Assembly: GCA_012519885.1 (NCBI GenBank)
Contig: JAAYPI010000014.1
Coordinates: forward strand, 1 to 57,541
Source: Bacteroidales bacterium
Lineage (GTDB): Bacteria; Bacteroidota; Bacteroidia; Bacteroidales; Paludibacteraceae
Length of the DNA: 57,541 nt
Direction: 5' to 3'
Shown here piece by piece: positions 15,201 to 30,643 of this stretch. The translations under genes and the position numbers were made by a program. The notes beneath the pieces are model-generated. The model did no database searches. It was not told where the DNA came from and was given only the letters and a program-made list of their open reading frames with translations. Numbering within the stretch: position 1 is the first letter of the stretch; each line of letters starts with the position of its first letter.

Positions 15201-16103
15201 TTATTTTTTTTCTTCATAAGGTTCTGTATGTATATTCACAACTGTTTGATTACCATATTGATGACGCAACAAAGATTCTACGTCTGTAGCAATATCATGA
15301 GACTCTACAAAACTTATATGTTTGTTCAGTTTAATATGAATATCAATTGCAATGAGATTACCTACTTTTCTAGTACGCAAATGATGATATGTAATTACAC
15401 CTGGTATAGACAATACGTGGTCAATTATTTCATCTTCTTTTTCTTTTGGCAAAGAAGACTCCAACAGTTCTTTTACACTAGGCATTGCTAATTCATAACT
15501 GACTTTCATAATAAAGAAACTCACTAGTACACTAGCAATTGGATCCAAGATTCTAAATTTTTCTCCTAAAAATATTGCTCCTGCAATACCTAAGGCTGTT
15601 GCTATAGAAGAAAATGCATCTGAACGATGATGCCATGCATTTGCAATAACAGCATCACTATTCACTTTTTTACCAATCTTAAATGTATACCAAAACAACG
15701 CTTCTTTTAAAGCAATCGAAACAAGAGCCGCATAAAAAGCCAACAGACTCGGTTGCATTATTTCATTCCCCTTATAAAAATAAACAATCTTATCAATACC
15801 ACCTATTAACAACCCTATTCCAACGACAAATAAGCAGATACTTATTATTAAAATAGCAAAGGTTTCGAATTTACCATGACCATATTTATGATTCTCATCA
15901 CTTTCTTTGTCTGATACTCTCATAAAAACAATAACCACAATGTCTGTCGCAAAATCAGACAAAGAATGCACCCCATCAGCAATCATAGCAGAACTTTTAC
16001 CTACAATACCTGCAAAAAGTTTGGCAAGGGTAAGCAATGGATTAACCACAAAACCAATAAGCGTTACATTTCTAATTTCTTTGTATCGTTCTCCTTGTTG
16101 CAT
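15201..16103 (-). CDS. Cation diffusion facilitator (FieF-like divalent metal exporter)
   Basis: Exports divalent metals (Zn, Fe, Cd, Mn in characterised relatives) by proton antiport. The 300 residues show a six-helix membrane domain with the metal-site signature ADGVHSLSDFATD near the second helix and a HHRSDAFSS segment in helix five, then a cytoplasmic ferredoxin-like domain (about 205-295) ending in His/Glu-rich residues (NIHTEPYEEKK). The metal cannot be told from sequence. Divergent from the Rnf operon; a TACCTTTG box at 16134-16127 lies 24 bp before its ATG. Confidence 0.88.
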   Translation of the reverse strand: MQQGERYKEIRNVTLIGFVVNPLLTLAKLFAGIVGKSSAMIADGVHSLSDFATDIVVIVFMRVSDKESDENHKYGHGKFETFAILIISICLFVVGIGLLIGGIDKIVYFYKGNEIMQPSLLAFYAALVSIALKEALFWYTFKIGKKVNSDAVIANAWHHRSDAFSSIATALGIAGAIFLGEKFRILDPIASVLVSFFIMKVSYELAMPSVKELLESSLPKEKEDEIIDHVLSIPGVITYHHLRTRKVGNLIAIDIHIKLNKHISFVESHDIATDVESLLRHQYGNQTVVNIHTEPYEEKK

Positions 16104-16229: not shown

Positions 16230-16652
16230 ATGAATTCTTCTCAGGAATATACTGGAACCATCGTAAAAATAAACCAAGAAACAGTAACAGTCTGCATAAA
16301 ACAACTTGCTGCTTGTGTTTCTTGTCAAACGAAAGGTGCTTGTAGTTCTGCTGATGTTAGCTCTAAATTAATAGAAGCAACTATTAATAATGAGAGTTTT
16401 GAGATTGGCGAAACAGTACGTATAATAGGCAAAAAAAACTTTGGGTTAAAAGCTGTTCTCATGGCTTTTGTTATTCCTGTTTTTCTAATATTGCTTATTT
16501 TGTTTGTTGCGGAGTATTACAAAAAAGATGATTTAACAATGGCAATTAGTACATTATTTGTGCTAATACCATATTATTTAATACTATTTCTATTGCAGAA
16601 TAAACTGAAGGCTCAGTTTATGTTTTATGTTGAAAAAATAGATAAAAAATGA
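16230..16652 (+). CDS. RseC/MucC-like regulator of the Rnf complex
   Basis: Small membrane protein of the SoxR-reducing-system RseC family, which commonly heads rnf operons in Bacteroidetes. About 140 residues: N-terminal beta-rich part with a Cys cluster (AACVSCQTKGAC), then two membrane helices and a short tail. Its exact role is unsettled; it is thought to support maturation or redox function of the Rnf/Rsx complex. Start ATG 16230 chosen because the longer frame begins inside the promoter box. Its stop overlaps the rnfB start (ATGA), so translation is probably coupled. Confidence 0.85.
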   Translation: MNSSQEYTGTIVKINQETVTVCIKQLAACVSCQTKGACSSADVSSKLIEATINNESFEIGETVRIIGKKNFGLKAVLMAFVIPVFLILLILFVAEYYKKDDLTMAISTLFVLIPYYLILFLLQNKLKAQFMFYVEKIDKK

Positions 16653-17500
16653 ATACAATTTTTCTTTCATTAGTAGTTTTGGGCACCATTGGATTGCTTG
16701 CTGCGATTATTTTGTACGTTGTTTCTCAAAAATTTAAAGTAGAAGAAAACCCCATCATTGATGAGGTTGAAGCAGCATTACCTAGTGCCAATTGTGGTGG
16801 ATGTGGTTTTCCTGGATGTAGAGGATTTGCTGTAGCATGCAGTGAAGCAACAGATTTAAGTAATTTGTTTTGTCCTGTTGGCGGAAATGATACCATGAAA
16901 ACTGTTGCTCATATAGTAGGATTAAGCGTAGTGGAAACAAAACCCAAAATTGCAGTGTTAAAATGCAACGGAACCTGCGAGCACCGTCCACGCACTAATC
17001 AATACGACGGAGCGAAATCATGCAAAATTATTCACAACTTATACATAGGAGAAACAGCCTGTCATTATGGTTGTTTGGGTGGTGGCGACTGCGAAGTGGC
17101 TTGTGCCTTTGATGCTTTGCATATAAACCCAGTAACAGGAATACCAGAAATTGATGAAGAAAAATGTACTGCGTGTGGTGCTTGTGTAAAGGCATGCCCA
17201 AAATTATTGTTAGAATTACGATTTAAAGGACCCAAAGGCAAACGCATCTATGTAGCATGTAGTAATAAAGAAAAAGGAGGAATTGCAAAAAAAGCATGCG
17301 AAGTAGCATGTATCGGATGCTCTAAATGCTTTAAAGTATGCCCACATGATGCCATAATTATTGAAAACAATTTGGCGTATATAATAGACGATAAATGTCG
17401 TTTGTGTACAAAATGTGTGGATGAATGTCCAACAGGTAGTATTCAAAAATTAAATTTCCCTATTAAGAAAAAAGAAGTAGCTGAACAAGCACAAGCATAA
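16649..17500 (+). CDS. rnfB: Rnf complex subunit RnfB (ferredoxin-like electron input)
   Basis: Iron-sulfur subunit that takes electrons from ferredoxin. Order: one N-terminal membrane helix (about 4-27), the Fe-S domain with NCGGCGFPGCRGF and a distal FCP, then ferredoxin-type clusters including CTACGACVKACP, CIGCSKCFKVCP and CRLCTKCVDECP. 283 residues, as usual for Bacteroidetes RnfB. It overlaps the preceding RseC-like gene by 4 bp. Confidence 0.95.
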   Translation: MNTIFLSLVVLGTIGLLAAIILYVVSQKFKVEENPIIDEVEAALPSANCGGCGFPGCRGFAVACSEATDLSNLFCPVGGNDTMKTVAHIVGLSVVETKPKIAVLKCNGTCEHRPRTNQYDGAKSCKIIHNLYIGETACHYGCLGGGDCEVACAFDALHINPVTGIPEIDEEKCTACGACVKACPKLLLELRFKGPKGKRIYVACSNKEKGGIAKKACEVACIGCSKCFKVCPHDAIIIENNLAYIIDDKCRLCTKCVDECPTGSIQKLNFPIKKKEVAEQAQA

Positions 17501-17549
17501 AACTAAGTTAGTAGTATATAACTATTACGTATATTCTGAAATAAGACGT

Positions 17550-18887
17550 ATGAAAACATTTACCTTTGGAGGCATTCATACTGCGGATATGAAATTATCG
17601 GCAGGAAAAAAAATTCAAATAGTACCGATCCCTAGTGAAGTAATTATCCCCTTAGAACAGCATATTGGGGCTCCTACAAACCCAGTGGTAGCTGTAGGTG
17701 AAACGGTTAAAGTGGGTCAGTTAATTGGTAAAGCTGTAGGGTTTATTTCGGCAAATATTCACTCATCCGTTTCAGGAAAAGTAACCAAGATTGATACAGT
17801 TATAGATGCATGGGGATACAAAAGACCTGCCGTATACATAGCAGTAGAAGGCGACGAATGGATGGAAAATATAGATAAAAAAGATGTAGTTCGCAAAGAA
17901 ATAACAACGAAAAGAGAAGATATTATACAGAAAATAGCAGATGCTGGCATTGTGGGTTTAGGTGGAGCTTGTTTTCCTACACATGTTAAGCTATCTCCTC
18001 CCCCCAATACAAAGGCAGAATTACTACTAATTAATGCAGTAGAATGTGAACCATATTTAACTTGCGACCATCAATTAATGCTCGAAAAAGCAGAAGAAAT
18101 AATTGTAGGTATTCAAATTTTAATGACTGTATTGCAAGTAAACAAAGCCATTATTGGCATAGAAAATAACAAAAAAGATGCCATTTCTCTATTACAGCAA
18201 ATCACAAGTTCATATTCAACTATTGAAGTTTGCCCCTTAGCAATGTGTTACCCACAGGGAGGCGAAAAGCAACTAATTGAGGCAATCACAAAAAAACAAG
18301 TGCCAAGTGGTCAATTACCTATTAATATTGGTATTGTCGTTCAGAATGTGGCAACAACATATGCCATTTACGAAGCAGTTCAAAAAAACAAACCTTTAAT
18401 AGAACGTGTAATAACAGTTACGGGGAAAAAAGTTGCAAAACCAGGTAATTTTTTAGTACGTATTGGAACTCCTTTACGCGTTCCATTAGATATGGCTGGG
18501 GGAATGCCCGAAGATACTGGAAAAATTATAGGTGGAGGTCCAATGATGGGACGAGCTTTTATGAACGCAGATGTACCTGTTACGAAACGTAGTGCTGGTT
18601 TATTAGTAATGCCTACCCTTGAGTCTGCCCGTAAAGAAATGCAAAATTGCATTCGTTGTGCCAAATGTGTAACAGCTTGTCCAATGGGTCTAGAACCCTA
18701 TTTATTGATGTCTCAGGCTGAAAAAAGCATGTGGAAAGAAATGGAAGAAACATACATTACTGATTGTATTGAATGTGGTTGCTGTTTGTTTTCTTGTCCT
18801 AGTAATCGACCACTATTAGACTATCTACGTATGGGGAAAAGCACTGTTTTGGAACAAATACGTAATCGCGTTCAAAAAGTTAACTAA
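17550..18887 (+). CDS. rnfC: Rnf complex subunit RnfC (NADH/FMN and Fe-S subunit)
   Basis: Peripheral subunit binding NAD(H) and FMN (Complex I 51-kDa-like fold) and two [4Fe-4S] clusters. The 445 residues have GLGGACFPTHVKL (the dinucleotide/FMN region, about 135-147), EPYLTCDHQLM, then the cluster motifs CIRCAKCVTACP and CIECGCCLFSCP near the C-terminus. Length is close to the compact Bacteroidetes form, without the long C-terminal repeats of gamma-proteobacterial RnfC. Confidence 0.95.
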   Translation: MKTFTFGGIHTADMKLSAGKKIQIVPIPSEVIIPLEQHIGAPTNPVVAVGETVKVGQLIGKAVGFISANIHSSVSGKVTKIDTVIDAWGYKRPAVYIAVEGDEWMENIDKKDVVRKEITTKREDIIQKIADAGIVGLGGACFPTHVKLSPPPNTKAELLLINAVECEPYLTCDHQLMLEKAEEIIVGIQILMTVLQVNKAIIGIENNKKDAISLLQQITSSYSTIEVCPLAMCYPQGGEKQLIEAITKKQVPSGQLPINIGIVVQNVATTYAIYEAVQKNKPLIERVITVTGKKVAKPGNFLVRIGTPLRVPLDMAGGMPEDTGKIIGGGPMMGRAFMNADVPVTKRSAGLLVMPTLESARKEMQNCIRCAKCVTACPMGLEPYLLMSQAEKSMWKEMEETYITDCIECGCCLFSCPSNRPLLDYLRMGKSTVLEQIRNRVQKVN

Positions 18888-18908
18888 TTGAAATCTACAC
18901 AAAGTATT

Positions 18909-19880
18909 ATGAATAAACTAATTATTTCGCCAGCTCCACATATACATAGTGGCGATTCTATTTCTAAAAATATGTATGCAGTACTACTTGCATTAGTACC
19001 TGCCTATTTAGTTGGTTTGTATTTTTTTGGAATTGGTGCTTTTGTTGTCAGTATTACTGCCGTTTTATCTTGTATTATTTTTGAATTTTTAATTCAAAAA
19101 TTTATTTTCAAAACTACCACTACTATCCATGATGGTTCTGCCATGCTTACGGGCTTATTATTAGCTTTTAACCTCCCATCTAACCTACCCATATGGATTA
19201 TTATTATTGGAGCATTAGTAGCGATAGGTATTGGTAAAATGAGTTTTGGAGGATTAGGTAACAATCCATTTAATCCAGCTTTAGTTGGTCGTGTATTTTT
19301 ATTAATATCTTTTCCTGTACAAATGACAACTTGGCCCAAACCAATACCATTTAATACAAGTTATTTGGATGCTGAGACTGCTGCTACACCTTTGGCTATG
19401 ATTAAATATAACTTTGGTAATTTACCAGAAAAAATGGACTTACTCATTGGTAATATGGGTGGTAGTATTGGAGAGGTATCTGCTATCGCATTAATTCTAG
19501 GAGGAATCTATTTGCTGATCAAACGTGTTATTACATGGCATATCCCAGTAAGTATGTTAGTTACTACATTTTTGTTTACAGGGATATTGCATTTGATTAA
19601 TCCTTCTTTATATGTATCTCCCGACATTCACCTGTTAACTGGAGGATTGCTATTGGGAGCTATTTTTATGGCTACTGATTATGCCACATCGCCTATGAAT
19701 ACAGTAGCACAGTTGGTATACGGAATAGGTATCGGACTGATTACAGTAACAATACGTTTATTTGGAGCCTATCCAGAGGGAGTATCTTTTGCTATATTGA
19801 TTATGAATGGTGTTACACCATTATTGAATCTATATGTTAAACCCAAACGATTTGGGGCACCAAAAACGAAAAAAAACTAA
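18909..19880 (+). CDS. rnfD: Rnf complex subunit RnfD (flavinylated membrane subunit)
   Basis: Polytopic membrane subunit that carries covalent FMN. The hydrophobic stretches fit the usual multi-helix topology, and ETAATPLAMIK matches the flavinylation site, in which the Thr of the AT-P motif bears FMN. GGLGNNPFNPALVGR is a conserved family segment. The frame extends to a TTG directly after the rnfC stop, but ATG 18909 gives the normal start MNKLIISPAPHIHSG, so I use it (323 residues). Confidence 0.94.
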   Translation: MNKLIISPAPHIHSGDSISKNMYAVLLALVPAYLVGLYFFGIGAFVVSITAVLSCIIFEFLIQKFIFKTTTTIHDGSAMLTGLLLAFNLPSNLPIWIIIIGALVAIGIGKMSFGGLGNNPFNPALVGRVFLLISFPVQMTTWPKPIPFNTSYLDAETAATPLAMIKYNFGNLPEKMDLLIGNMGGSIGEVSAIALILGGIYLLIKRVITWHIPVSMLVTTFLFTGILHLINPSLYVSPDIHLLTGGLLLGAIFMATDYATSPMNTVAQLVYGIGIGLITVTIRLFGAYPEGVSFAILIMNGVTPLLNLYVKPKRFGAPKTKKN

Positions 19881-19906
19881 AGTAGGTATTCAAAATAACA
19901 TACTAA

Positions 19907-20530
19907 ATGAAAAAATTAGAATCAAATTTGCCTAATATGGTCATGGTTTTGACTGCTATTACCTTAATAGCATCATTTTTGTTGGCAAGTGTTTATGGTG
20001 TTACTAAAGCACCAATTGAGTTGGCTAAAGAAAAAAAGAAAGAAGTCGCAATTAAAAATGTACTGCCTCCTTTTAATCGGATAGAAAATGACACAATTGA
20101 GGGAATTGTTGTATACAAAGGTTATAAAGATGCTAACTGGGTAGGAACAGCTGTAGAAAGTGTATCAAAAAATGGGTTTGGTGGAGAAATAAAAATAATT
20201 GTAGGTTTTGATGCAAAGGGATGTATTTTCAATTATACAGTTTTAGAACAAAAGGAAACGCCAGGACTAGGTACTAAAATGATAGATTGGTTTAAAACTT
20301 CAAAGAATAAGCAAAGTATTCTTGGTAAGAATATAGCTCAGGAAGAGTTAAAGGTTTCAAAAGATGGTGGAAATATTGATGCAATGACAGCATCAACGAT
20401 TAGTTCAAGGGCGTTTTTAGAAGCGGTGAATAATGCCTATTCCACCATATCACATTACGACACACATACTAGTGCTACACAAGTATCAGATGCTGCTACA
20501 GCAGCTACACCATGGGTAGAAAATAAATAA
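19907..20530 (+). CDS. rnfG: Rnf complex subunit RnfG (FMN-binding)
   Basis: Single-span periplasmic subunit with covalent FMN. N-terminal membrane helix (about 10-30), then an FMN-binding domain with KNGFGGEIKIIVGFD, ETPGLGTKM and the flavinylation motif DAMTASTISSRAF. The acceptor Thr is present, but the preceding residues are Ala-Ser where the usual motif has Gly-Ala or Ala-Ala. The tail after the domain is Thr/Ala-rich. 207 residues, 26 bp after rnfD. Confidence 0.93.
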   Translation: MKKLESNLPNMVMVLTAITLIASFLLASVYGVTKAPIELAKEKKKEVAIKNVLPPFNRIENDTIEGIVVYKGYKDANWVGTAVESVSKNGFGGEIKIIVGFDAKGCIFNYTVLEQKETPGLGTKMIDWFKTSKNKQSILGKNIAQEELKVSKDGGNIDAMTASTISSRAFLEAVNNAYSTISHYDTHTSATQVSDAATAATPWVENK

Positions 20531-20544
20531 AAACAATAGGATAC

Positions 20545-21132
20545 ATGAATGCAATTAAAATCGTTCTAAATGGGATATTAAAAGAAAATCCTGTTTTTGT
20601 TTTGTTACTGGGGATGTGCCCCACTTTAGGAACTACAAGTTCTGCTATTAATGGGCTCGGAATGGGCATAGCTACTATGTTTGTTCTTATTGGTTCAAAT
20701 ACGGTAATTTCTCTGATTAAGAATGTAATACCTGATAAAATTCGCATTCCTGCATTTGTTGTTGTCATTGCTGCATTTGTAAGTATTATTCAAATGTTAA
20801 TGGAGGCTTATTTACCAGAATTATATGCCAGTTTAGGCTTGTTTATTCCTCTTATTGTTGTAAACTGTATCGTATTAGGTAGAGCCGAAGCTTTTGCTGC
20901 CAAAAATGGCGTATTTCATTCAGCCTTAGATGGATTGGGTATGGGATTGGGGTTTTCGTTGGCATTAACCCTATTAGGATCAACAAGAGAATTACTAGGA
21001 ACAGGTAAAATATTTAATATGTTTATTTATCCAGAACATTATGGAATGCTAATTTTTGTTTTGGCACCTGGAGCGTTTATTGTTTTGGGATTCTTAATCG
21101 TCTTTGTTACAAAGCTACAAACATCAAAATAA
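20545..21132 (+). CDS. rnfE: Rnf complex subunit RnfE
   Basis: Integral membrane subunit, about six helices, homologous to NqrD. It contains LLGMCPTLGTTSSAINGLGMG and the half-helix segment NCIVLGRAEAFA; the Cys residues in these two places belong to the intramembrane iron site shared with RnfA. Distinguished from RnfA by the GMCPTLG start and the AEAFA signature. 195 residues, 14 bp after rnfG. Confidence 0.94.
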   Translation: MNAIKIVLNGILKENPVFVLLLGMCPTLGTTSSAINGLGMGIATMFVLIGSNTVISLIKNVIPDKIRIPAFVVVIAAFVSIIQMLMEAYLPELYASLGLFIPLIVVNCIVLGRAEAFAAKNGVFHSALDGLGMGLGFSLALTLLGSTRELLGTGKIFNMFIYPEHYGMLIFVLAPGAFIVLGFLIVFVTKLQTSK

Positions 21133-21139
21133 ATACATC

Positions 21140-21712
21140 ATGAGTTATATCATTATTTTTATCGCAGCTGTTTTTGTAAACAACATTGTATTATCACAAT
21201 TTTTAGGTATTTGTCCGTTCTTGGGGGTATCTAAAAAAATTAACACTGCCCTTGGAATGAGTGGTGCGGTAGCCTTTGTAATGACAATTTCAACCATTAT
21301 TACGTATTTGCTACAAAAATACGTTCTAGAACAATTTGATATTTTATTTTTACAGACCATTGTATTTATCTTAATTATTTCTGCTCTGGTACAATTAGTA
21401 GAAATTATATTAAAAAAAGTCTCTCCTCCTCTATACCAAGCATTGGGGGTATTTTTGCCATTAATAACCACCAATTGTACTATTTTAGGAGTTGCAATTA
21501 TGACAATTCAAAAAGATTACACTTTGCTTGAGGGGGTTGTTTTTGCGATATCTACAGCTCTCGGTTTTGGACTTGCTTTAGTGATATTTGCTGGTATTAG
21601 AGAACAACTTGTATTTGCAAAAATACCCAAAGCGATGCAAGGAGCACCTATAGCTTTACTAGTAGCAGGCTTATTGGCTATGGCATTTATGGGATTTACA
21701 GGTATTGTGTAA
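21140..21712 (+). CDS. rnfA: Rnf complex subunit RnfA
   Basis: Integral membrane subunit homologous to NqrE, about six helices, partner of RnfE in the ion-translocating core. Shows NNIVLSQFLGICPFLGVSKK near the start and TTNCTILGVAIM in the mirrored half, with the two Cys of the shared iron site. ATG 21140 chosen: the longer frame starts at a TTG inside rnfE and adds a polar, non-homologous leader. 190 residues, 7 bp after rnfE; it completes the set B-C-D-G-E-A. Confidence 0.94.
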   Translation: MSYIIIFIAAVFVNNIVLSQFLGICPFLGVSKKINTALGMSGAVAFVMTISTIITYLLQKYVLEQFDILFLQTIVFILIISALVQLVEIILKKVSPPLYQALGVFLPLITTNCTILGVAIMTIQKDYTLLEGVVFAISTALGFGLALVIFAGIREQLVFAKIPKAMQGAPIALLVAGLLAMAFMGFTGIV

Positions 21713-22218: not shown

Positions 22219-24432
22219 ATGAAAATTATTAGTACTGCATGTCTTCTCATGCTAGTATCCTTTTTCGTTTTAGCTGACGATAAAAGTACCGTAGAACTCA
22301 ACGAATTTGTTGTAAACAGTTTGCCAAAAGAATCAGCATTTACAACACAATTGGCTACTACAAATTATACCATTGGAATGCAACAAGTTGAAAAACTTGG
22401 GGTGCAATCAATAAAAAATCTATCTGCCCATATTCCCAATTATTACTTACCAGATTATGGCTCAAAAATCACGTCATCCATGTATATTAGAGGTATAGGG
22501 AGTAGAATGAATGAACCTGCTATTGGAATGTATGTGGACAATGTGCCTTATATTCATCGTAGTGCTTTTGATATTATGTTGCATGATATACAGCAGTTTC
22601 AGTTTCTTCAAGGTCCGCAAGGAACCTTATATGGCAGAAATACGATTGGAGGGTTGATGAATATATATACGATAAGCCCTCTTGTTTACCAAGGAACAAG
22701 GTTAAACGTATCGTATGCCACATACAATGATGCCAATGTGTCTGTATCTCATTACCAAAAATTGAACGATTCATTGGGCGTAAGTATCTCTGGGTATGTT
22801 CAGCACCAGGATGGACATTTTACCAATATGGGACGAATGGAGAAAAATAAATCAGATGAATTTGGTATTAGAGGAAAACTGGAATGGAAAATGAAAAACA
22901 ATTGGCAATCAATGTTTCAAATTTCTTACGATTACACCGACCAAATAGCCTACCCGTATGCCAAATTTGACACAATAAGCAAGCAAATATATCCTATTAA
23001 CTACAACGAACAAGGTGCATATAGACGTAAAATGTTATCTTCTGGATTCACACTTCAAAAAATAACGGATAATTATGCATTTACTTCTGCAACTGGTTTT
23101 CAAAACATTACGGATAGAATGGATATAGATCAAGATTTTACTTCCGACTCTATTATGGTATTACAACAAAATCAACATTTAAAGAGCATTACGCAGGAAT
23201 TTGTATTTCGTTCAAATAATTCAAATAATTGGCAATGGGTAAATGGCTTATTTTTATTTGGAGCAAGTAATACTATCGATTCTCCGATGACATTCCAAAA
23301 AGGTGGTATAAAGATGATACAAAACTTTATGGATATGGCAAAAATGTTTAATCCCAATATGCCTACAATTACTATTTTAAATGAAGAAATGCTTGTTGCT
23401 GGATTATTTAGTAAACCATCTATTGGTGCAGCTTTGTACCACCAATCAAGCTATTCATTCACCAATAAATTCAGTGTAACCGCTGGAATTCGATTGGATT
23501 ATGAAAAAGCATTTATCGACTACGATTCGGAAGCAACCTTGCAGACAAGTGTAAAATTACCTTCCCCATTTGTTCCTGCTTTTCGGGTGGACTCAACATA
23601 TGCCGTAAAAGGCTTTAAAAGCAAAGACTTTATAGAAGTATTACCGAAAGTTGCATTACACTATAAAATAGATAATCAACACATAGTATATACTTCATTA
23701 ACCAAAGGATATAAAGCTGGAGGATATAATTATTCGATGTTTTCTGATATTTTACAAGCACAAATGCAAGGAAACAAAGATGTAACGATTGATGACAAAA
23801 TATATTATAAGCCCGAAGAATCATGGAATATTGAGGTTGGTAGTAATGGTACATTCGGTAACAATCGTTTTAATTACCAAACTGCAATTTTTTATATTCA
23901 TCACTATAACCAACAATTGAGTACAACCACTAGCAATGGAAGTCGTATGATTAGCAATGCAGAAGTAAGCCAAAGTATAGGTGGAGAACTAAGTGTAAAG
24001 GCATGTTTAAGTAAACAAATAGCGGGGTATATCCATTACGGACATACAAATGCAAGCTTTATTAAATACAATGCGAATAACATTAATTACAACAATAAAT
24101 CAATACCTTTCGCACCTAAAAACACACTCTCTTTAGGTATTGAAACTAAGGTACCAATAACCGAAGAATGGCTCGATGAAATCGTTCTTTCTGCACATTA
24201 CACAGGCATTGGTCCACTATACTGGAATGCACAAAATACGCTCTCTCAAGAATATTATGGTATTGCAAATGGCGATATAACATTCTCAAAAAATAATACA
24301 CATCTGAAATTTTGGGTCAAAAATGCACTCAATCAATCGTACAATGTGTTTTATTTTGAATCACTTGGAAATAGTTTTGTACAAAAAGGTATTCCGATAT
24401 CTTTTGGCATTCATGTGAAACACATTTTGTAA
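22219..24432 (+). CDS. TonB-dependent outer-membrane receptor (siderophore/iron-complex type)
   Basis: Energised outer-membrane importer of 737 residues. Signal peptide about 1-19 (ends VLADD), a TonB-box-like segment (STVELNEFVV), plug domain to about 155 with the signature VDNVPYIHRSAFD and LQGPQGTLYGRNTIGG, then a 22-strand-type barrel ending in hydrophobic residues (VKHIL). Unlike SusC proteins it lacks the carboxypeptidase-regulatory N-domain and has no SusD neighbour, which points to an iron-complex or similar small ligand rather than a glycan. The ligand is not predictable. A 13-bp stem terminator follows at 24441-24488. Confidence 0.85.
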   Translation: MKIISTACLLMLVSFFVLADDKSTVELNEFVVNSLPKESAFTTQLATTNYTIGMQQVEKLGVQSIKNLSAHIPNYYLPDYGSKITSSMYIRGIGSRMNEPAIGMYVDNVPYIHRSAFDIMLHDIQQFQFLQGPQGTLYGRNTIGGLMNIYTISPLVYQGTRLNVSYATYNDANVSVSHYQKLNDSLGVSISGYVQHQDGHFTNMGRMEKNKSDEFGIRGKLEWKMKNNWQSMFQISYDYTDQIAYPYAKFDTISKQIYPINYNEQGAYRRKMLSSGFTLQKITDNYAFTSATGFQNITDRMDIDQDFTSDSIMVLQQNQHLKSITQEFVFRSNNSNNWQWVNGLFLFGASNTIDSPMTFQKGGIKMIQNFMDMAKMFNPNMPTITILNEEMLVAGLFSKPSIGAALYHQSSYSFTNKFSVTAGIRLDYEKAFIDYDSEATLQTSVKLPSPFVPAFRVDSTYAVKGFKSKDFIEVLPKVALHYKIDNQHIVYTSLTKGYKAGGYNYSMFSDILQAQMQGNKDVTIDDKIYYKPEESWNIEVGSNGTFGNNRFNYQTAIFYIHHYNQQLSTTTSNGSRMISNAEVSQSIGGELSVKACLSKQIAGYIHYGHTNASFIKYNANNINYNNKSIPFAPKNTLSLGIETKVPITEEWLDEIVLSAHYTGIGPLYWNAQNTLSQEYYGIANGDITFSKNNTHLKFWVKNALNQSYNVFYFESLGNSFVQKGIPISFGIHVKHIL

Positions 24433-26668: not shown

Positions 26669-26698
26669 TGATAATAGCACTTTAAAGTGCTATTATCA
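26669..26698. repeat. Perfect 30-bp palindrome upstream of the TPR gene
   Basis: TGATAATAGCACTTT followed immediately by its exact reverse complement, with no spacer. It lies between the TPR start codon (26647) and the terminator at 26717-26758. It could be a dimeric operator, a leader RNA hairpin or a cruciform; it lacks the T-run of a terminator. Confidence 0.85.
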
Positions 26699-26716
26699 AT
26701 TAAACGTAAATGTAAT

Positions 26717-26758
26717 AAAAAAAAGTATCACAAATAATAGAATGTGATACTTTTTTTT
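26717..26758. terminator. Terminator after the HMA-domain gene
   Basis: A-run, AGTATCAC, 12-nt loop, GTGATACT, T-run: symmetrical and strong, about 16 bp. It ends the HYC-TonB-HMA transcript (minus strand) and isolates the TPR gene. Confidence 0.85.
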
Positions 26759-26763
26759 ACTCA

Positions 26764-27120
26764 TTACCTCATGGTTGATTCAGGATGTATTGCGTTTAAA
26801 CAACCCTCCTTACTCCCTATACAACTAACCTCTTGAATAGTAGCGACATAACCTAATTTTTTAAATACCGACAATAAATTACTTACTGAATTTTTATCAG
26901 ACATAAAAGTAATTGCAACCGTTTTATCCTTCATATTAATTTTAATTTTTTTTAATCCTTTTTCTTCTTGCATAGCTGTCGTAATTTTTTCTTTGCAAGA
27001 ATGGCAATGAATATTTACCATAAACGTTGCTGAAATTTTCTCTGCTTTTGGTTGTTGTGCTACTAGCATTGGTAAAAACACTAACAGAGATAAAATTGTA
27101 GTTATAACCTTGTTTTTCAT
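26764..27120 (-). CDS. Secreted heavy-metal-associated (HMA) domain protein
   Basis: Signal peptide (about 1-21, ending LVAQQ), then one ferredoxin-like HMA domain with the soft-metal motif CHSC (VNIHCHSCKEKI). A further Cys pair (EVSCIGSKEGC) lies near the C-terminus. Such domains bind Cu(I), Zn or similar ions; export suggests a periplasmic chaperone or scavenger. 118 residues. It is the last gene of a three-gene unit, 10 bp after a TonB receptor gene, which argues that the receptor handles a metal. Confidence 0.85.
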   Translation of the reverse strand: MKNKVITTILSLLVFLPMLVAQQPKAEKISATFMVNIHCHSCKEKITTAMQEEKGLKKIKINMKDKTVAITFMSDKNSVSNLLSVFKKLGYVATIQEVSCIGSKEGCLNAIHPESTMR

Positions 27121-27130
27121 ATTTATATAT

Positions 27131-29299
27131 TTAATTTTGTTTTGGTAAATTGTAGCGTAAACCCAGATAAAATTTTCTTCCGTGCAAAGGTCCCCAAATC
27201 ATTGTAGCATCAAATGTATCTGATTGTGGATTAGAAGCACTAATAATTGGATTTGATTGTGTAAAGTTAGTAATATTTTCAATACCTACATACACAGATG
27301 CATTTTTAAAGTAACGAGTAACTTGAGCATTGTATTGTTGGTAGGCACTAAACGTTTTATTCCATAATGGATTTATTGCATCAGGCGTTGGCATACGTCC
27401 GCCACCATTTAATTGCGAGGTAATATCATACTGCCATCTGCCTAAGGAAGTTTTGTAAGATGCTGTTATTAAACCTCTATGCATGCTCATTAGTGGTTTT
27501 AGTTGTAATACACCTCCTGTTACAGATTTCGTATCATTATATCGATAAGCTCCAAGAATTGTTAACCCATCCGCTATTTCAGTGCTAACTTCTATTTGTG
27601 CATTGTGTGCATAAGACGTGCCTAATGCATTGTAAAAAAGGATTTTATTAGCAAATGAATCAAAATCAATAACAAGTTGATTGTCAAATAATGTATAATA
27701 ATACTCTGTAGAAATCATTACTGTTCGGTAGCCAATTGGAATGTCAAATACTGCATTTACGCCTGTATTCCAAGCAGCTTCTTGTTGTAGTGGAGTAGAA
27801 ATAACAAACTCTCTGTTACTTGCAAGTAAGTTATTATTCTCTATCATTACATTTGGCGATCGATACCCTTTACCTATAGAAAAACGCAAGGTAACAGCAT
27901 TTATTGGCATGTATTTAATATGCAAACGTGGGGTTACAAATAGAGCATATTGTTTATTATAATCAGCTCGTATACCTGCCAACACAATCCATTTATCTGC
28001 CAGTTTTAATGTATACTCACCAAAAATACCAGGAGTAATGTAGTCCGTTTCTGTTATCTGGGTATTCCACTTCTCTTCATATAAATCCGCTTCCATACTT
28101 AGCCCTGTTTTAATGAAATGCGTTTCTTCGTCGGTTAAATGACTCTGTAAGATTGCATTTAAATAGAAAGAATACTGTGATGCATCATATGTTTGAGCAC
28201 CGTATAGGCTCTCTTGGCGATGAAATACCCCGTTAGTAATCAAACCAATACTGGTTTCTTTCTCTTCGTTCAATTCAATTCCATGTTTCATAAACACGTC
28301 GGCTCTCCACGTATCAATATGTATAGCATACGAATTTGGTGCTATTTGTCCCCCCATCCTATTTTCGTACAAACCTTTTACACCAAATTGGGCGGTATAC
28401 TGTTTATTGGCATATTGCCACCTATTAAAAAGAGAATATTGCTCTACTTGTGGATAATCAGCGAATCCATCATTATTTTTATCATGATGTTGAAAATCTT
28501 TATCTGCGTGCACAAATAGCATCGTTGACAAATTCTTTGTCAGCTTAGTGCTTGCATCAGCGTTAAGTTCAACCCTACCATCGCTACTACCAAACAGATT
28601 CACTGAAAATGGGTCTGCTAACTGAGGTTTTTTGTACTCAACATTAATCTGCCCTGTAATCGATTCATATCCATTAGATACAGAGGATGTTCCCTTAGAA
28701 ATTAAAATACCATCCATCCACGTACCAGGCACATACGATAAACCATAGGTACTACCTAATCCTCTAAAACTTGGTATATTTTCATTTATCATTTGTACAT
28801 AAATACCTGATAAACCTAACAACCTAATTTGCTTTGCACCTGTAGCTGCATCTGTGTAAGAGACGTCTACCGAAGGATTTGTTTCAAAACTCTCAGACAA
28901 ATTACAACAAGCAGCACGACATAATTCTGAATAAGATATCTCTTGCGTTTGAATAGGTGTAGCCCTAAAAGTTACTAGACCTGATTTTCTGCCCGAAACC
29001 TCTACTTCATCTAATTCTGTAACTTGTGCCAATTGCACAATATAGGGAGAAGAATATGTAATCTGTATTGTGTCTGATTTATATCCTAAATAACTTATAA
29101 TCAAACGATCCGATGTATTCATTTTTTCTATCTCAAAATTTCCATCAATAGAAGAAAGAACACCATAATTTGTATTTTCCCAATAAATATTAGCACCAAT
29201 AAGGGGTTCTTTGTTTTCTCCCAACACTTTGCCAATTATTTGAGAATGCATGGATGCAGATACCAGCAATCCAATTAAAAAGATATAAAATGTTTTCAT
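27131..29299 (-). CDS. TonB-dependent receptor of a probable metal-handling cassette
   Basis: Outer-membrane receptor with signal peptide (about 1-19), a carboxypeptidase-regulatory-like domain (about 20-100: GKVLGENKEPLIGANIYWEN), plug and barrel ending in YNLPKQN. The plug has the unusual CRAACCNLSESFETNP with three Cys, followed by TGAKQIRLLGLSGIYVQM, a combination I associate with Bacteroidetes receptors encoded beside HMA proteins. Flanked on the same strand by an HYC_CC_PP-type protein upstream and an HMA protein 10 bp downstream. The start ATG 29299 is the one followed by a proper signal sequence; the longer frame adds another hydrophobic stretch. Copper or zinc is a guess from context. 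722 residues. Confidence 0.82.
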   Translation of the reverse strand: MKTFYIFLIGLLVSASMHSQIIGKVLGENKEPLIGANIYWENTNYGVLSSIDGNFEIEKMNTSDRLIISYLGYKSDTIQITYSSPYIVQLAQVTELDEVEVSGRKSGLVTFRATPIQTQEISYSELCRAACCNLSESFETNPSVDVSYTDAATGAKQIRLLGLSGIYVQMINENIPSFRGLGSTYGLSYVPGTWMDGILISKGTSSVSNGYESITGQINVEYKKPQLADPFSVNLFGSSDGRVELNADASTKLTKNLSTMLFVHADKDFQHHDKNNDGFADYPQVEQYSLFNRWQYANKQYTAQFGVKGLYENRMGGQIAPNSYAIHIDTWRADVFMKHGIELNEEKETSIGLITNGVFHRQESLYGAQTYDASQYSFYLNAILQSHLTDEETHFIKTGLSMEADLYEEKWNTQITETDYITPGIFGEYTLKLADKWIVLAGIRADYNKQYALFVTPRLHIKYMPINAVTLRFSIGKGYRSPNVMIENNNLLASNREFVISTPLQQEAAWNTGVNAVFDIPIGYRTVMISTEYYYTLFDNQLVIDFDSFANKILFYNALGTSYAHNAQIEVSTEIADGLTILGAYRYNDTKSVTGGVLQLKPLMSMHRGLITASYKTSLGRWQYDITSQLNGGGRMPTPDAINPLWNKTFSAYQQYNAQVTRYFKNASVYVGIENITNFTQSNPIISASNPQSDTFDATMIWGPLHGRKFYLGLRYNLPKQN

Positions 29300-29450
29300 T
29301 ATTAAAAAAAATGAAGTGAATAAACTAAAATAAAAAACGTAAATGTGTAACAAACACACCCTTTTTTCTTACTTTTATCTTGAGTACAACCCATTATATC
29401 GTAAATGGACACAATGATGATACATAGATAAAACTAGAGTTTAGTTCAAA

Positions 29451-29909
29451 TCAAATAATAAAAACAGCTATTTTGGATAAATAATCTTCGTACAAATAGT
29501 ACTTATACAAATTAATTGAAAGGCATTCTTTTTTACCATTAATTTGTTGAATATCAGAAGGTATTGCAAGAACAGCAGAAAGTAAAAAAGACGGAATAGT
29601 AGATAAAGGCTGTGTTATTTGCACCTTAGCTATGTAACTATCCAAAGGTATAGATAAGCGTTGAGATGTACAATCTTGATGATGATCATCATGTTTGTGA
29701 GGGATATCTTGTGCTTCGCTATCATCACAAGAACTAGTACAACAGATAGCAAGATCACCCTTTACTGAATGGTGTACATCCATGCATGACTGACCCATTA
29801 AAATAGGAAAATACTCCCTACAAGCATCACATCCATAGTGAACAACATTTACTCCTAAACTAGCAAAAAAGAGTAATACGGCAAAAAACTGTAAAATAAA
29901 TCGTTTCAT
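29451..29909 (-). CDS. HYC_CC_PP-like secreted Cys/His-rich protein
   Basis: 152-residue exported protein: signal peptide (about 1-20), then HYGCDACREYF, AICCTSSCDD and a His cluster (HKHDDHHQDC). The HYxC and CC motifs match the HYC_CC_PP family of Bacteroidetes, named for these motifs; the final PP motif is not evident. The pattern suggests a metal-binding periplasmic or surface protein, but no function is established. First gene of the unit with the TonB receptor and HMA genes, though a 151-bp gap before the receptor leaves room for separate control. Start ATG 29909 chosen for the signal peptide. Confidence 0.7.
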   Translation of the reverse strand: MKRFILQFFAVLLFFASLGVNVVHYGCDACREYFPILMGQSCMDVHHSVKGDLAICCTSSCDDSEAQDIPHKHDDHHQDCTSQRLSIPLDSYIAKVQITQPLSTIPSFLLSAVLAIPSDIQQINGKKECLSINLYKYYLYEDYLSKIAVFII

Positions 29910-29940
29910 TGACAAGAAAGTAGTGTTAATTACTTTTTTG

Positions 29941-29990
29941 CAAAGATACACACAAAAAATTTTTACAGATATAGAAAAAACGTATCTTTG
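29941..29990. promoter_or_regulatory. Divergent promoter pair
   Basis: TATCTTTG on the minus strand (29948-29941) faces TATCTTTG on the plus strand (29983-29990). They serve the HYC gene (about 32 bp upstream of its ATG) and rsmG (about 33 bp upstream). No good -33 box on either side. Confidence 0.6.
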
Positions 29991-30022: not shown

Positions 30023-30643
30023 ATGAATGTGATTATTAAATACTTCCCAAATTTATCAATACAACAAGTTGCTCAATTTGAAGCACTTTTTCCATTATAT
30101 ATGGATTGGAATAGCAAAATTAACGTCATTTCACGTAAAGATATTGAGAATTTATACGTTCATCACGTATTACATTCATTAGCGATAGCAAAGATTATAC
30201 CTTTTGTTGATCAAACATCTGTTATTGACATTGGCACTGGTGGCGGTTTTCCTGGTATTCCGTTAGCTATATTGTTTCCTAACGTACAGTTTCATTTAGT
30301 TGATTCAATCGGTAAAAAAATTAAAGTAGCTCAAGAAATAGCTCAAGAAATTGGACTTGAAAATACAACCTTTCTCCACGATAGAATCGAAAATGAAAAA
30401 AAAACAGTTGATTTTGTGGTTAGTAGAGCTGTTATGCCTCTGGGAGATTTAGTTCGTTTTTGTAAAAAAAATATTAAAAAAGAACAAAAAAATTCCCTCC
30501 CTAATGGATTAATATGTTTAAAAGGAGGGGAACTTCAATCAGAAATACAAGCTTTTAAAAAAAGTGCAACAATATATGAGTTAACTGATTTCTTCAATGA
30601 AGATTATTTTAAAACAAAAAAAGCTGTTTATATTCCTTTGTAA
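30023..30643 (+). CDS. rsmG: 16S rRNA (guanine-N7) methyltransferase
   Basis: Methylates N7 of G527 in 16S rRNA (E. coli numbering) using SAM. 206 residues with YMDWNSKINVISRKD, the SAM motif VIDIGTGGGFPGIPLAI (the family-specific GGGFPG) and VSRAVMPLGDLV. Length and start are typical. First of four closely spaced genes on this strand, 8 bp before pcm. Confidence 0.94.
   Translation: MNVIIKYFPNLSIQQVAQFEALFPLYMDWNSKINVISRKDIENLYVHHVLHSLAIAKIIPFVDQTSVIDIGTGGGFPGIPLAILFPNVQFHLVDSIGKKIKVAQEIAQEIGLENTTFLHDRIENEKKTVDFVVSRAVMPLGDLVRFCKKNIKKEQKNSLPNGLICLKGGELQSEIQAFKKSATIYELTDFFNEDYFKTKKAVYIPL

Follow-up and report, generated by a model that had tools for sequence, protein, structure and literature searches.

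A candidate metal-sensing leader and a covarying intergenic stem ahead of a TonB-dependent receptor and an HMA protein in Bacteroidota

We analyzed a 57,541-nucleotide stretch of DNA from a Bacteroidales bacterium of the family Paludibacteraceae (contig JAAYPI010000014.1, here called the window). It constitutes the entire contig G000:C48, one of 219 in a genome of 2.28 Mb and 99% completeness. On the minus strand of the window lie three genes for a small Cys/His-rich protein, a TonB-dependent receptor (TBDT), and an HMA-domain protein. From sequence comparison, we consider it somewhat probable that the first gene is a metal-sensing leader that gates the receptor and HMA genes through a stem, P1, in the gap between leader and receptor. 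The initial annotation of this DNA had taken the small product for a soluble metal-binding protein, but a co-translational leader that senses metal fits better because of its upstream-only position, the covarying stem behind it, the near-fixed distance from its Cys residues to the C terminus, and the efflux pumps that are also headed by such genes. Sequence statistics carry the trio and its conservation, the promoter elements found ahead of the leader only, the covariation of P1, the Cys-to-end distance in the HYC_CC_PP family, and the occurrence of that family ahead of CusA-type pumps.

Operon structure and conservation of the three genes

The leader and receptor genes are 151 bp apart, and the receptor and HMA genes are 10 bp apart. 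Upstream of the leader is an exact TATCTTTG element, which is kept in the locus L004 of the same genus (upstream identity, 106/145). Among 46 related loci, 35 had the motif TAnnTTTG within 120 nt upstream of the leader, where mononucleotide shuffles predicted 4.1; inside the leader-receptor gap, it occurred in 5 of 47 loci (4.7 expected). These counts support a single transcript for leader, TBDT, and HMA gene, with promoter elements preceding the leader and not the receptor; separate transcription units found no support, the count in the gap being at expectation. The HMA gene is followed by an AT-rich 19-bp hairpin that a simple hairpin scan did not list. The initial annotation had described a three-gene unit of this kind with this promoter, a strong terminator, and metal-type residues in each product, and all of these were found, the residues being eight Cys in the small protein, a Cys trio in the receptor plug, and CHSC in the HMA protein.

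The receptor has a CarbopepD_reg_2 domain and a barrel, with the plug scoring just under the cut-off. Its model was that of a standard TBDT (pLDDT 80), and Foldseek returned general TBDT matches only, among them Cir, PfeA, BtuB, OprC, and ZnuD. The plug motif ELCRAACCN holds Cys127, Cys131, and Cys132. The CC pair of the family hallmark ACCNLxESF was invariant in all 20 receptors of set A1, which was not selected on this motif, while the first Cys (C127) was variable; the 48/48 CC pairs of set A2 are partly a matter of construction, since that set was built from CC-motif loci. The pair reads APCCN at L097, and L087 is a fragment without that part; an HMA gene is near both. Strong receptor matches were present in many related genomes, and the receptor profile at an E value of ≤1e-100 found 46 of 148 Bacteroidota genomes, a count that includes relatives without CC. 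An OprC-type plug site seems unlikely: the plug carries CxxxCC where OprC has CxxxM-HxM, and a profile alignment with 9gbc placed the Cys trio elsewhere in the plug, where the first helix region of the plug begins. The plug model itself (residues 94 to 162) is unreliable, with pLDDT below 50.

The third gene product matched PF00403 at 42.1 bits (gathering cut-off, 24.8) and has its CxxC as CHSC, which places it in the HMA family. Among Bacteroidales loci with a CC-plug receptor, 58 of 78 had a separate HMA gene within 1.5 kb, as did 19 of 35 in the wider phylum sample, the latter count leaving out an open reading frame (ORF) of L126 that overlaps the receptor. In the wider set, the HMA gene was upstream of the receptor at nine loci and downstream at ten. 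HMA was fused to the receptor N terminus at 4 more of the 35 wider-phylum loci and also in L031 and L032, where its scores of 24.7 and 20.6 bits fell slightly short of the 24.8 that Pfam requires; the receptors with an N-terminal fusion are those of L031, L032, L120, L132, L145, and L146. Such fusions tie the second gene to the third in a natural way, and together with the adjacency, they support the HMA protein as a periplasmic partner of the receptor. The proposal that it is the receptor's periplasmic acceptor is thereby strengthened as far as functional partnership goes.

Leader profiles matched upstream of the receptor at every one of the 69 CC-plug loci with a match (42 of 78 Bacteroidales and 27 of 35 wider-phylum loci); upstream proteins had served to build the Bacteroidales profile, but the search covered all ORFs of each locus. 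Leader and HMA occurred together at 33 of 78 Bacteroidales and 17 of 35 wider-phylum loci. The initial annotation had named conserved clustering in advance as its test, and the trio does recur in Bacteroidota around CC-plug receptors. None of 20 control TBDT loci from related genomes, each with at least 1.6 kb on either side of the receptor, had an HMA gene, the small protein, or a CC plug, so the association of the trio is more than chance. Five distant receptors without CC (L153 to L157) had neither leader nor HMA gene. The neighbor of those in L156 and L157 resembles MntR/DtxR-type metal regulators, which suggests a manganese or iron branch of receptors.

Two broader connections of the trio were not retained. 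A P1B-type ATPase with CPC and DKTGT followed the HMA gene at only 6 of 80 Bacteroidales loci, all of them in Bacteroides, and we therefore rejected a general link to CopA. A lead toward heme transport, from the tlr/PG0644 neighborhood of P. gingivalis, was dropped because the literature passages gave no connection to the trio.

The leader family and its downstream genes

The leader protein has a hydrophobic N terminus, eight Cys residues, the segment HYGCDAC close to the N terminus, and a CC pair at positions 56 and 57. Judged from its sequence, it is probably exported by way of the hydrophobic segment. Export was part of the initial annotation and is suggested for the products, but "extracellular," in the sense of release, was too strong a term. 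Comparison with L004 gave a dN of 0.35 and a dS of 1.63, as expected if the small ORF encodes a protein that purifying selection maintains. Conservation was best in three parts, namely HYGCDAC, a block in the middle, and the final 14 residues; the stretch just before those 14 was poorly kept (32% identity). The structure model was poorly ordered (pLDDT 58, pTM 0.31), which we counted in favor of a leader.

No Pfam or NCBIfam model matched the leader over its cut-off. Against the NCBIfam family HYC_CC_PP (NF047658; cut-off, 28 bits), there was no match at E values up to 5, and a search of the whole host genome with NF047658 also found none; the family name given initially to this protein is therefore a resemblance only. 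HYGC and CC are present, and the C-terminal PP is absent, as it is in 10 of 33 relatives. Pfam DUF2946 did not match the leader either; across the 148 Bacteroidota genomes, it gave weak matches in five and none in the host. Membership in either family, as defined by its model, was thus rejected. We then compared a profile of the 33 Bacteroidales leader relatives (A3) with one of 23 NF047658 members (A4). The hhalign probability was 97 over the N-terminal 51 columns, which include the HYxC-like motif. Homology of the A3 leaders to HYC_CC_PP is likely; it falls short of proof because the aligned segment includes the hydrophobic N terminus.

The distance from the Cys residues to the end of the protein was nearly fixed in A4, with 69 to 73 residues between the last CC and the C terminus in 20 of 23 members whose total lengths ranged from 122 to 152. 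C80, the last conserved Cys of the window leader, lies 72 residues before the C terminus, and the corresponding distance in L004 is 71. The pattern in A3 was looser, with the last Cys 68 to 73 residues from the end in 15 of 33, so this ruler is tight only outside Bacteroidales. Conservation at the extreme C terminus was strong in A3, in A4, and in the comparison with L004, extending beyond the Cys residues, and most leaders here end in a hydrophobic xLI.

NF047658 members numbered 58 matches in 45 of 148 genomes, and we read 30 of these loci. The gene after the leader encoded a CusA/CzcA-type RND pump at 14 loci (5 confirmed by Pfam, the remainder judged by N-terminal sequence), a TBDT at 7, an HMA protein followed by a TBDT at 3, HMBD followed by RND at 2, another HMA protein at 3, and OEP at 1. 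One leader-headed pump was scored against both CusA (637 bits) and ZneA (394 bits) and was closest to CusA. It keeps three Met residues that we take to be the CusA copper site, M573, M623, and M672; the alignment was computed, and it is read here with assumed Met identities and an assumed tag offset of 7. The metal theme of the initial annotation is supported. The metal is most likely copper, a choice favored by the link of the leader family to CusA and not by the host.

A covarying stem between leader and receptor

P1 in the window consists of 13 pairs, 11 of them with a pair probability of 0.75 to 0.81, and the gap as a whole folded with a z score of −3.9. Gaps at 45 loci had a mean z of −3.36, with 39 below −2, whereas equally long stretches upstream of the leader had a mean of 0.01, with 3 below −2. 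When 47 leader gaps (mean, −3.63; 42 below −2) were set against co-directional control gaps of the same loci, of which 150 of 299 were folded, the controls had a mean of −1.57, and 55 of 150 were below −2. A stem of at least 7 pairs joining the ends of the gap was present in 30 of 47 leader gaps and 38 of 150 control gaps (p = 2e-6); the control rate was at the level of shuffled sequence. In a further set, 23 of 27 TBDT gaps and 22 of 27 gaps before RND and other genes were below −2, counts that are not independent because some loci were resampled under new identifiers (e.g., L188 to L193).

P1 starts a median of 1.5 bases from the first base of the stop codon, which is itself paired in 16 of 30 loci, and ends a median of 7 nt upstream of the next start codon. 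It is usually a long-range stem that encloses inner hairpins and not a compact hairpin, and the sequences of its arms vary between loci. RNAalifold returned 0 pairs for six gaps because sequence alignment failed to register the arms, and we therefore used an alignment-free test in which arms were swapped between loci. The cognate arms were within the best 5% of swaps in 20 of the 44 gaps before receptors and 8 of the 10 before pumps, compared to 4 of 59 and 1 of 60 control gaps (120 drawn, 119 nonredundant). The window's own arms were the best of all their swaps (rank 0.00). L004 has a P1 of different sequence that likewise starts at the stop codon. These results indicate that P1 covaries, its sequence changing while pairing stays. 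When the first 16 nt were blocked in the folding model, as they would be by a ribosome at the stop codon, the 3′ arm was freed in both the window and L004.

A U tract follows P1 in 3 of 30 loci, the window among them, so P1 does not serve in general as an intrinsic terminator, though it may in the window. The coordinates of these features are collected in Table 1.

Table 1. Positions in the window of the three genes and associated elements
Feature	Position	Strand	Basis or remark
Promoter −7 element TATCTTTG	29941..29948	-	Sequence; conserved in same-genus L004
Small Cys/His-rich ORF, proposed metal-sensing leader, 152 aa	29451..29909	-	ATG 29909, stop 29451
Codons of the conserved C-terminal 14 leader residues (LYEDYLSKIAVFII)	29454..29495	-	Pairwise alignment with L004; A3 C-terminal conservation
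P1 5′ arm, from first base of leader stop codon	29438..29453	-	Folding
Two inner hairpins within P1	29327..29430	-	Folding
P1 3′ arm, ending 12 nt upstream of receptor ATG	29312..29326	-	Folding
U8 tract directly after P1	29304..29311	-	Makes a terminator-like reading possible in the window
TBDT, 722 aa from ATG	27131..29299	-	Domain models
Plug Cys127, Cys131, Cys132 (LCRAACCN)	28904..28921	-	Sequence, alignment
HMA-domain protein, 118 aa, predicted to be exported	26764..27120	-	PF00403
CHSC metal site of HMA protein	26995..27006	-	Sequence
Terminator hairpin with U-rich 3′ arm, after HMA gene	26714..26761	-	−20.4 kcal/mol, z −6.9

Several other features of the window lie near these or recall them. 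Between the terminator and the start of a TPR gene is a perfect 30-bp palindrome (26670 to 26699; TGATAATAGCACTTTAAAGTGCTATTATCA), and the 46-nt stretch around it folds with a z of −6.3; an operator and a second hairpin are candidate roles. A second TATCTTTG element on the plus strand (29983 to 29990) faces an rsmG-like gene (30023 to 30643) and is also kept in L004, which suggests divergent promoters in a shared upstream region. By sequence, the window further holds another ORF resembling TonB receptors (22219 to 24432), which lacks the plug CC and follows an Rnf-like cluster (16649 to 21712), and a cation diffusion facilitator (CDF)-like ORF (15201 to 16103), possibly metal related too. The Bacteroidales small signal recognition particle RNA is present as well. 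Elsewhere in the genome, the only other HMA match (L002, positions 1489 to 2286, contig C193) has CPSE replacing CxxC and is joined to a membrane protein of CDF-like appearance.

Proposed mechanism, alternatives, and known systems

The anatomy of the leader matches that of CutF and CruR, two metal-responsive leaders compared below, and on this likeness we propose a metal-controlled dwelling of the ribosome that opens P1. The leader would be exported during its own translation, and by the time a ribosome arrives at the stop codon, about 70 residues would separate it from the last conserved Cys, which would be outside the ribosome tunnel. Metal, most likely copper, on the nascent Cys/His cluster would alter how long the ribosome dwells at the C terminus or stop codon. 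A ribosome dwelling there would cover the 5′ arm of P1 and free the 3′ arm near the receptor start codon, so that receptor and HMA protein could be translated; after its departure, P1 would close and shield the receptor start. Transport across the outer membrane, of the metal itself or of a complex containing it, would fall to the receptor with its plug Cys pair, and uptake in the periplasm to the HMA protein. Arrest, metal binding, copper as the metal, the direction of control, and uptake are the parts of this scheme that we infer.

Three other explanations share some of this evidence. The small protein could be a soluble metal binder, metallophore-like or a periplasmic buffer, with the TBDT importing, the HMA protein accepting, and P1 serving mRNA stability or an expression ratio. 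Purifying selection on the protein along most of the small ORF, its many Cys and His residues, its probable export, and its conservation with receptor and HMA all agree with such a role. We nevertheless think it unlikely, because the small gene stays upstream even though the HMA gene moves, the same family heads efflux pumps, the extreme C terminus is strongly conserved and not the Cys residues alone, and a closing stem exceeds the shuffled level behind this family while control gaps show no such excess. In a second alternative, P1 and the U tract would act as a transcription attenuator, ending transcription ahead of the receptor unless a ribosome held on the leader opens the stem, an outcome at the RNA level like that of CruR or TnaC. 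The U8 tract directly after P1 in the window speaks for this, as does the action of CruR through transcription termination, which is Rho dependent there according to passages of PMC9426467; yet the rarity of the U tract at other loci and a P1 that is mostly long range around inner hairpins make us rate the attenuator slightly lower again.

The last alternative is plain translational coupling, in which P1 would hide the receptor start, any ribosome finishing the leader would open it, and no metal would be sensed. It accords with the start of P1 at or near the stop codon and with the freeing of the 3′ arm in the folding model. We regard it as improbable, since it leaves unexplained the conserved Cys residues, their near-fixed distance from the end, and the presence of metal genes downstream in each of the 30 NF047658 loci read.

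A number of observations weigh against the metal-sensing leader itself. At the family level, the misses with NF047658 and DUF2946 and the lack of a C-terminal PP do so, as does the position of Cys in Bacteroidales leaders, where the last CC is often farther from the end and the last Cys is 29 to 42 residues from it in 15 of 33. No leader was recognized at 36 of 78 Bacteroidales and 8 of 35 wider-phylum CC-plug loci, and no HMA gene was nearby at 20 of 78 and 16 of 35 (4 of these fused); some of the loci without leader or HMA gene are cut by contig ends. With regard to P1, more than a third of control gaps had z scores below −2, so stability alone is not specific; 17 of 47 loci had no P1 of 7 or more pairs, the cognate-arm rank in L004 was only 0.16, and leader-to-HMA gaps were not unusually stable (mean z, −1.2; 0 of 7 below −2), with at least 7 closing pairs in 5 of 7 and some of these loci duplicates. 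The host genome, 99% complete, had no match for COX1, Cu-oxidase_2, or Cu/Zn superoxide dismutase, so that copper uptake has no visible cuproenzyme client, and it had no evident P1B ATPase, its sole E1-E2 ATPase match being read as P2-like. Finally, the same leader family precedes an importer-like receptor and exporters, which calls for opposite polarity unless the receptor operon is also induced by metal. Metal would be expected to switch an importer off and the pumps on, whereas those Bacteroides operons that include a P1B ATPase suggest that the receptor operon is switched on.

More tentatively, and at somewhat less than even confidence, these leaders may form a Bacteroidota-wide class of nascent-chain metal sensors with a near-fixed Cys-to-end distance, a stem that begins at their own stop codon, and, in many including the window, a ribosome hold at the stop codon without PP, which would control both TBDT-HMA and CusA operons. 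If so, the uncharacterized HYC_CC_PP proteins and their unrecognized Bacteroidales relatives would gain a testable function, co-translational metal sensing that gates the next gene, and Bacteroidota, a phylum of the gut, would offer an example of CutF/CruR-type control that is recognizable by a clear signature in sequence. The CC-plug receptor family with its HMA partner is a candidate metal importer.

The name HYC_CC_PP did not occur in the literature searched, which consisted of 5.39 million articles without their supplementary files; the supplementary files of published surveys may list a P1-type stem or the HYC_CC_PP set. NF047658 proteins resemble the window leader in their N-terminal hydrophobic segment, HYxC-like motif, position, and gap stem and differ in the points noted above, model recognition and the C-terminal PP.

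CutF and CruR are among the closest parallels. CutF of Rhodobacter capsulatus (DUF2946; operon cutFOG) is a small exported leader and first gene with a Cys metal motif, and passages of PMC9973294 describe a C-terminal arrest-like region and an intergenic stem shielding the next start, which co-translational export and copper binding open at cutO. The window leader shares the first position, the hydrophobic N-terminal segment (by sequence), the Cys motif, and an intergenic stem, which would shield the start; it differs in that the next gene encodes a TBDT with HMA and not a multicopper oxidase and in that P1, which encloses inner hairpins, takes up almost all of the 151-nt gap. In the survey reported there, Bacteroidota made up 19% of the CutF-like list (40% normalized), and TonB and ACR_tran (RND) genes were among the downstream neighbors. 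Its approach included intergenic RNA motifs, and the results given in these passages are gap lengths. Its filters, as described, removed proteins of >150 aa and required PP within 15 residues of the end, so the window leader, with 152 aa and no PP, would fail them.

CruR of Bordetella pertussis (cruR-crtA/bfrG-bp2921) likewise precedes a TBDT and a third gene whose product faces the periplasm, and passages of PMC9426467 give it a Cys motif at a fixed distance from the end and a gap of 162 nt, compared to 151 here. Its RAPP motif and Rho-dependent termination are its own, its third gene is PepSY and not HMA, and CrtA has no conserved Cys (PMC12914433), whereas the receptors here have the plug CC. 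Passages of PMC12992588 report CruR arrest in vitro. They also report that leaders with RAPP/RGPP occur throughout Gram-negative bacteria ahead of TonB-related genes and are absent from Bacteroidota ahead of copper-related genes; the window leader has no RAPP/RGPP motif. According to the passages cited, copper acts in opposite directions in CutF (PMC9973294) and CruR (PMC9426467).

SecM ahead of secA is also an exported leader with a stem over the next start (per passages of PMC9973294), but the proposed input here is metal and not export status, and the two share no arrest motif. Leaders before secDF and secA in Bacteroidota are, in passages of PMC10987492, small, phylum specific, and conserved at the very C-terminal end, as the leaders here are; they differ in their downstream genes, in ending with proline (NAP-stop or NSP-stop), and in having no metal link there. 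Among receptors, OprC of Pseudomonas aeruginosa shares the TBDT fold and a Cys in the plug, with its copper site given as C143xxxM147 plus HxM in passages of PMC8610252, and a Bizionia study, in passages of PMC11213822, puts forward another TBDT, one like OprC, for copper. The plug Cys residues of the window receptor lie some 20 to 30 residues after a presumed TonB box, compared to about 70 in OprC.

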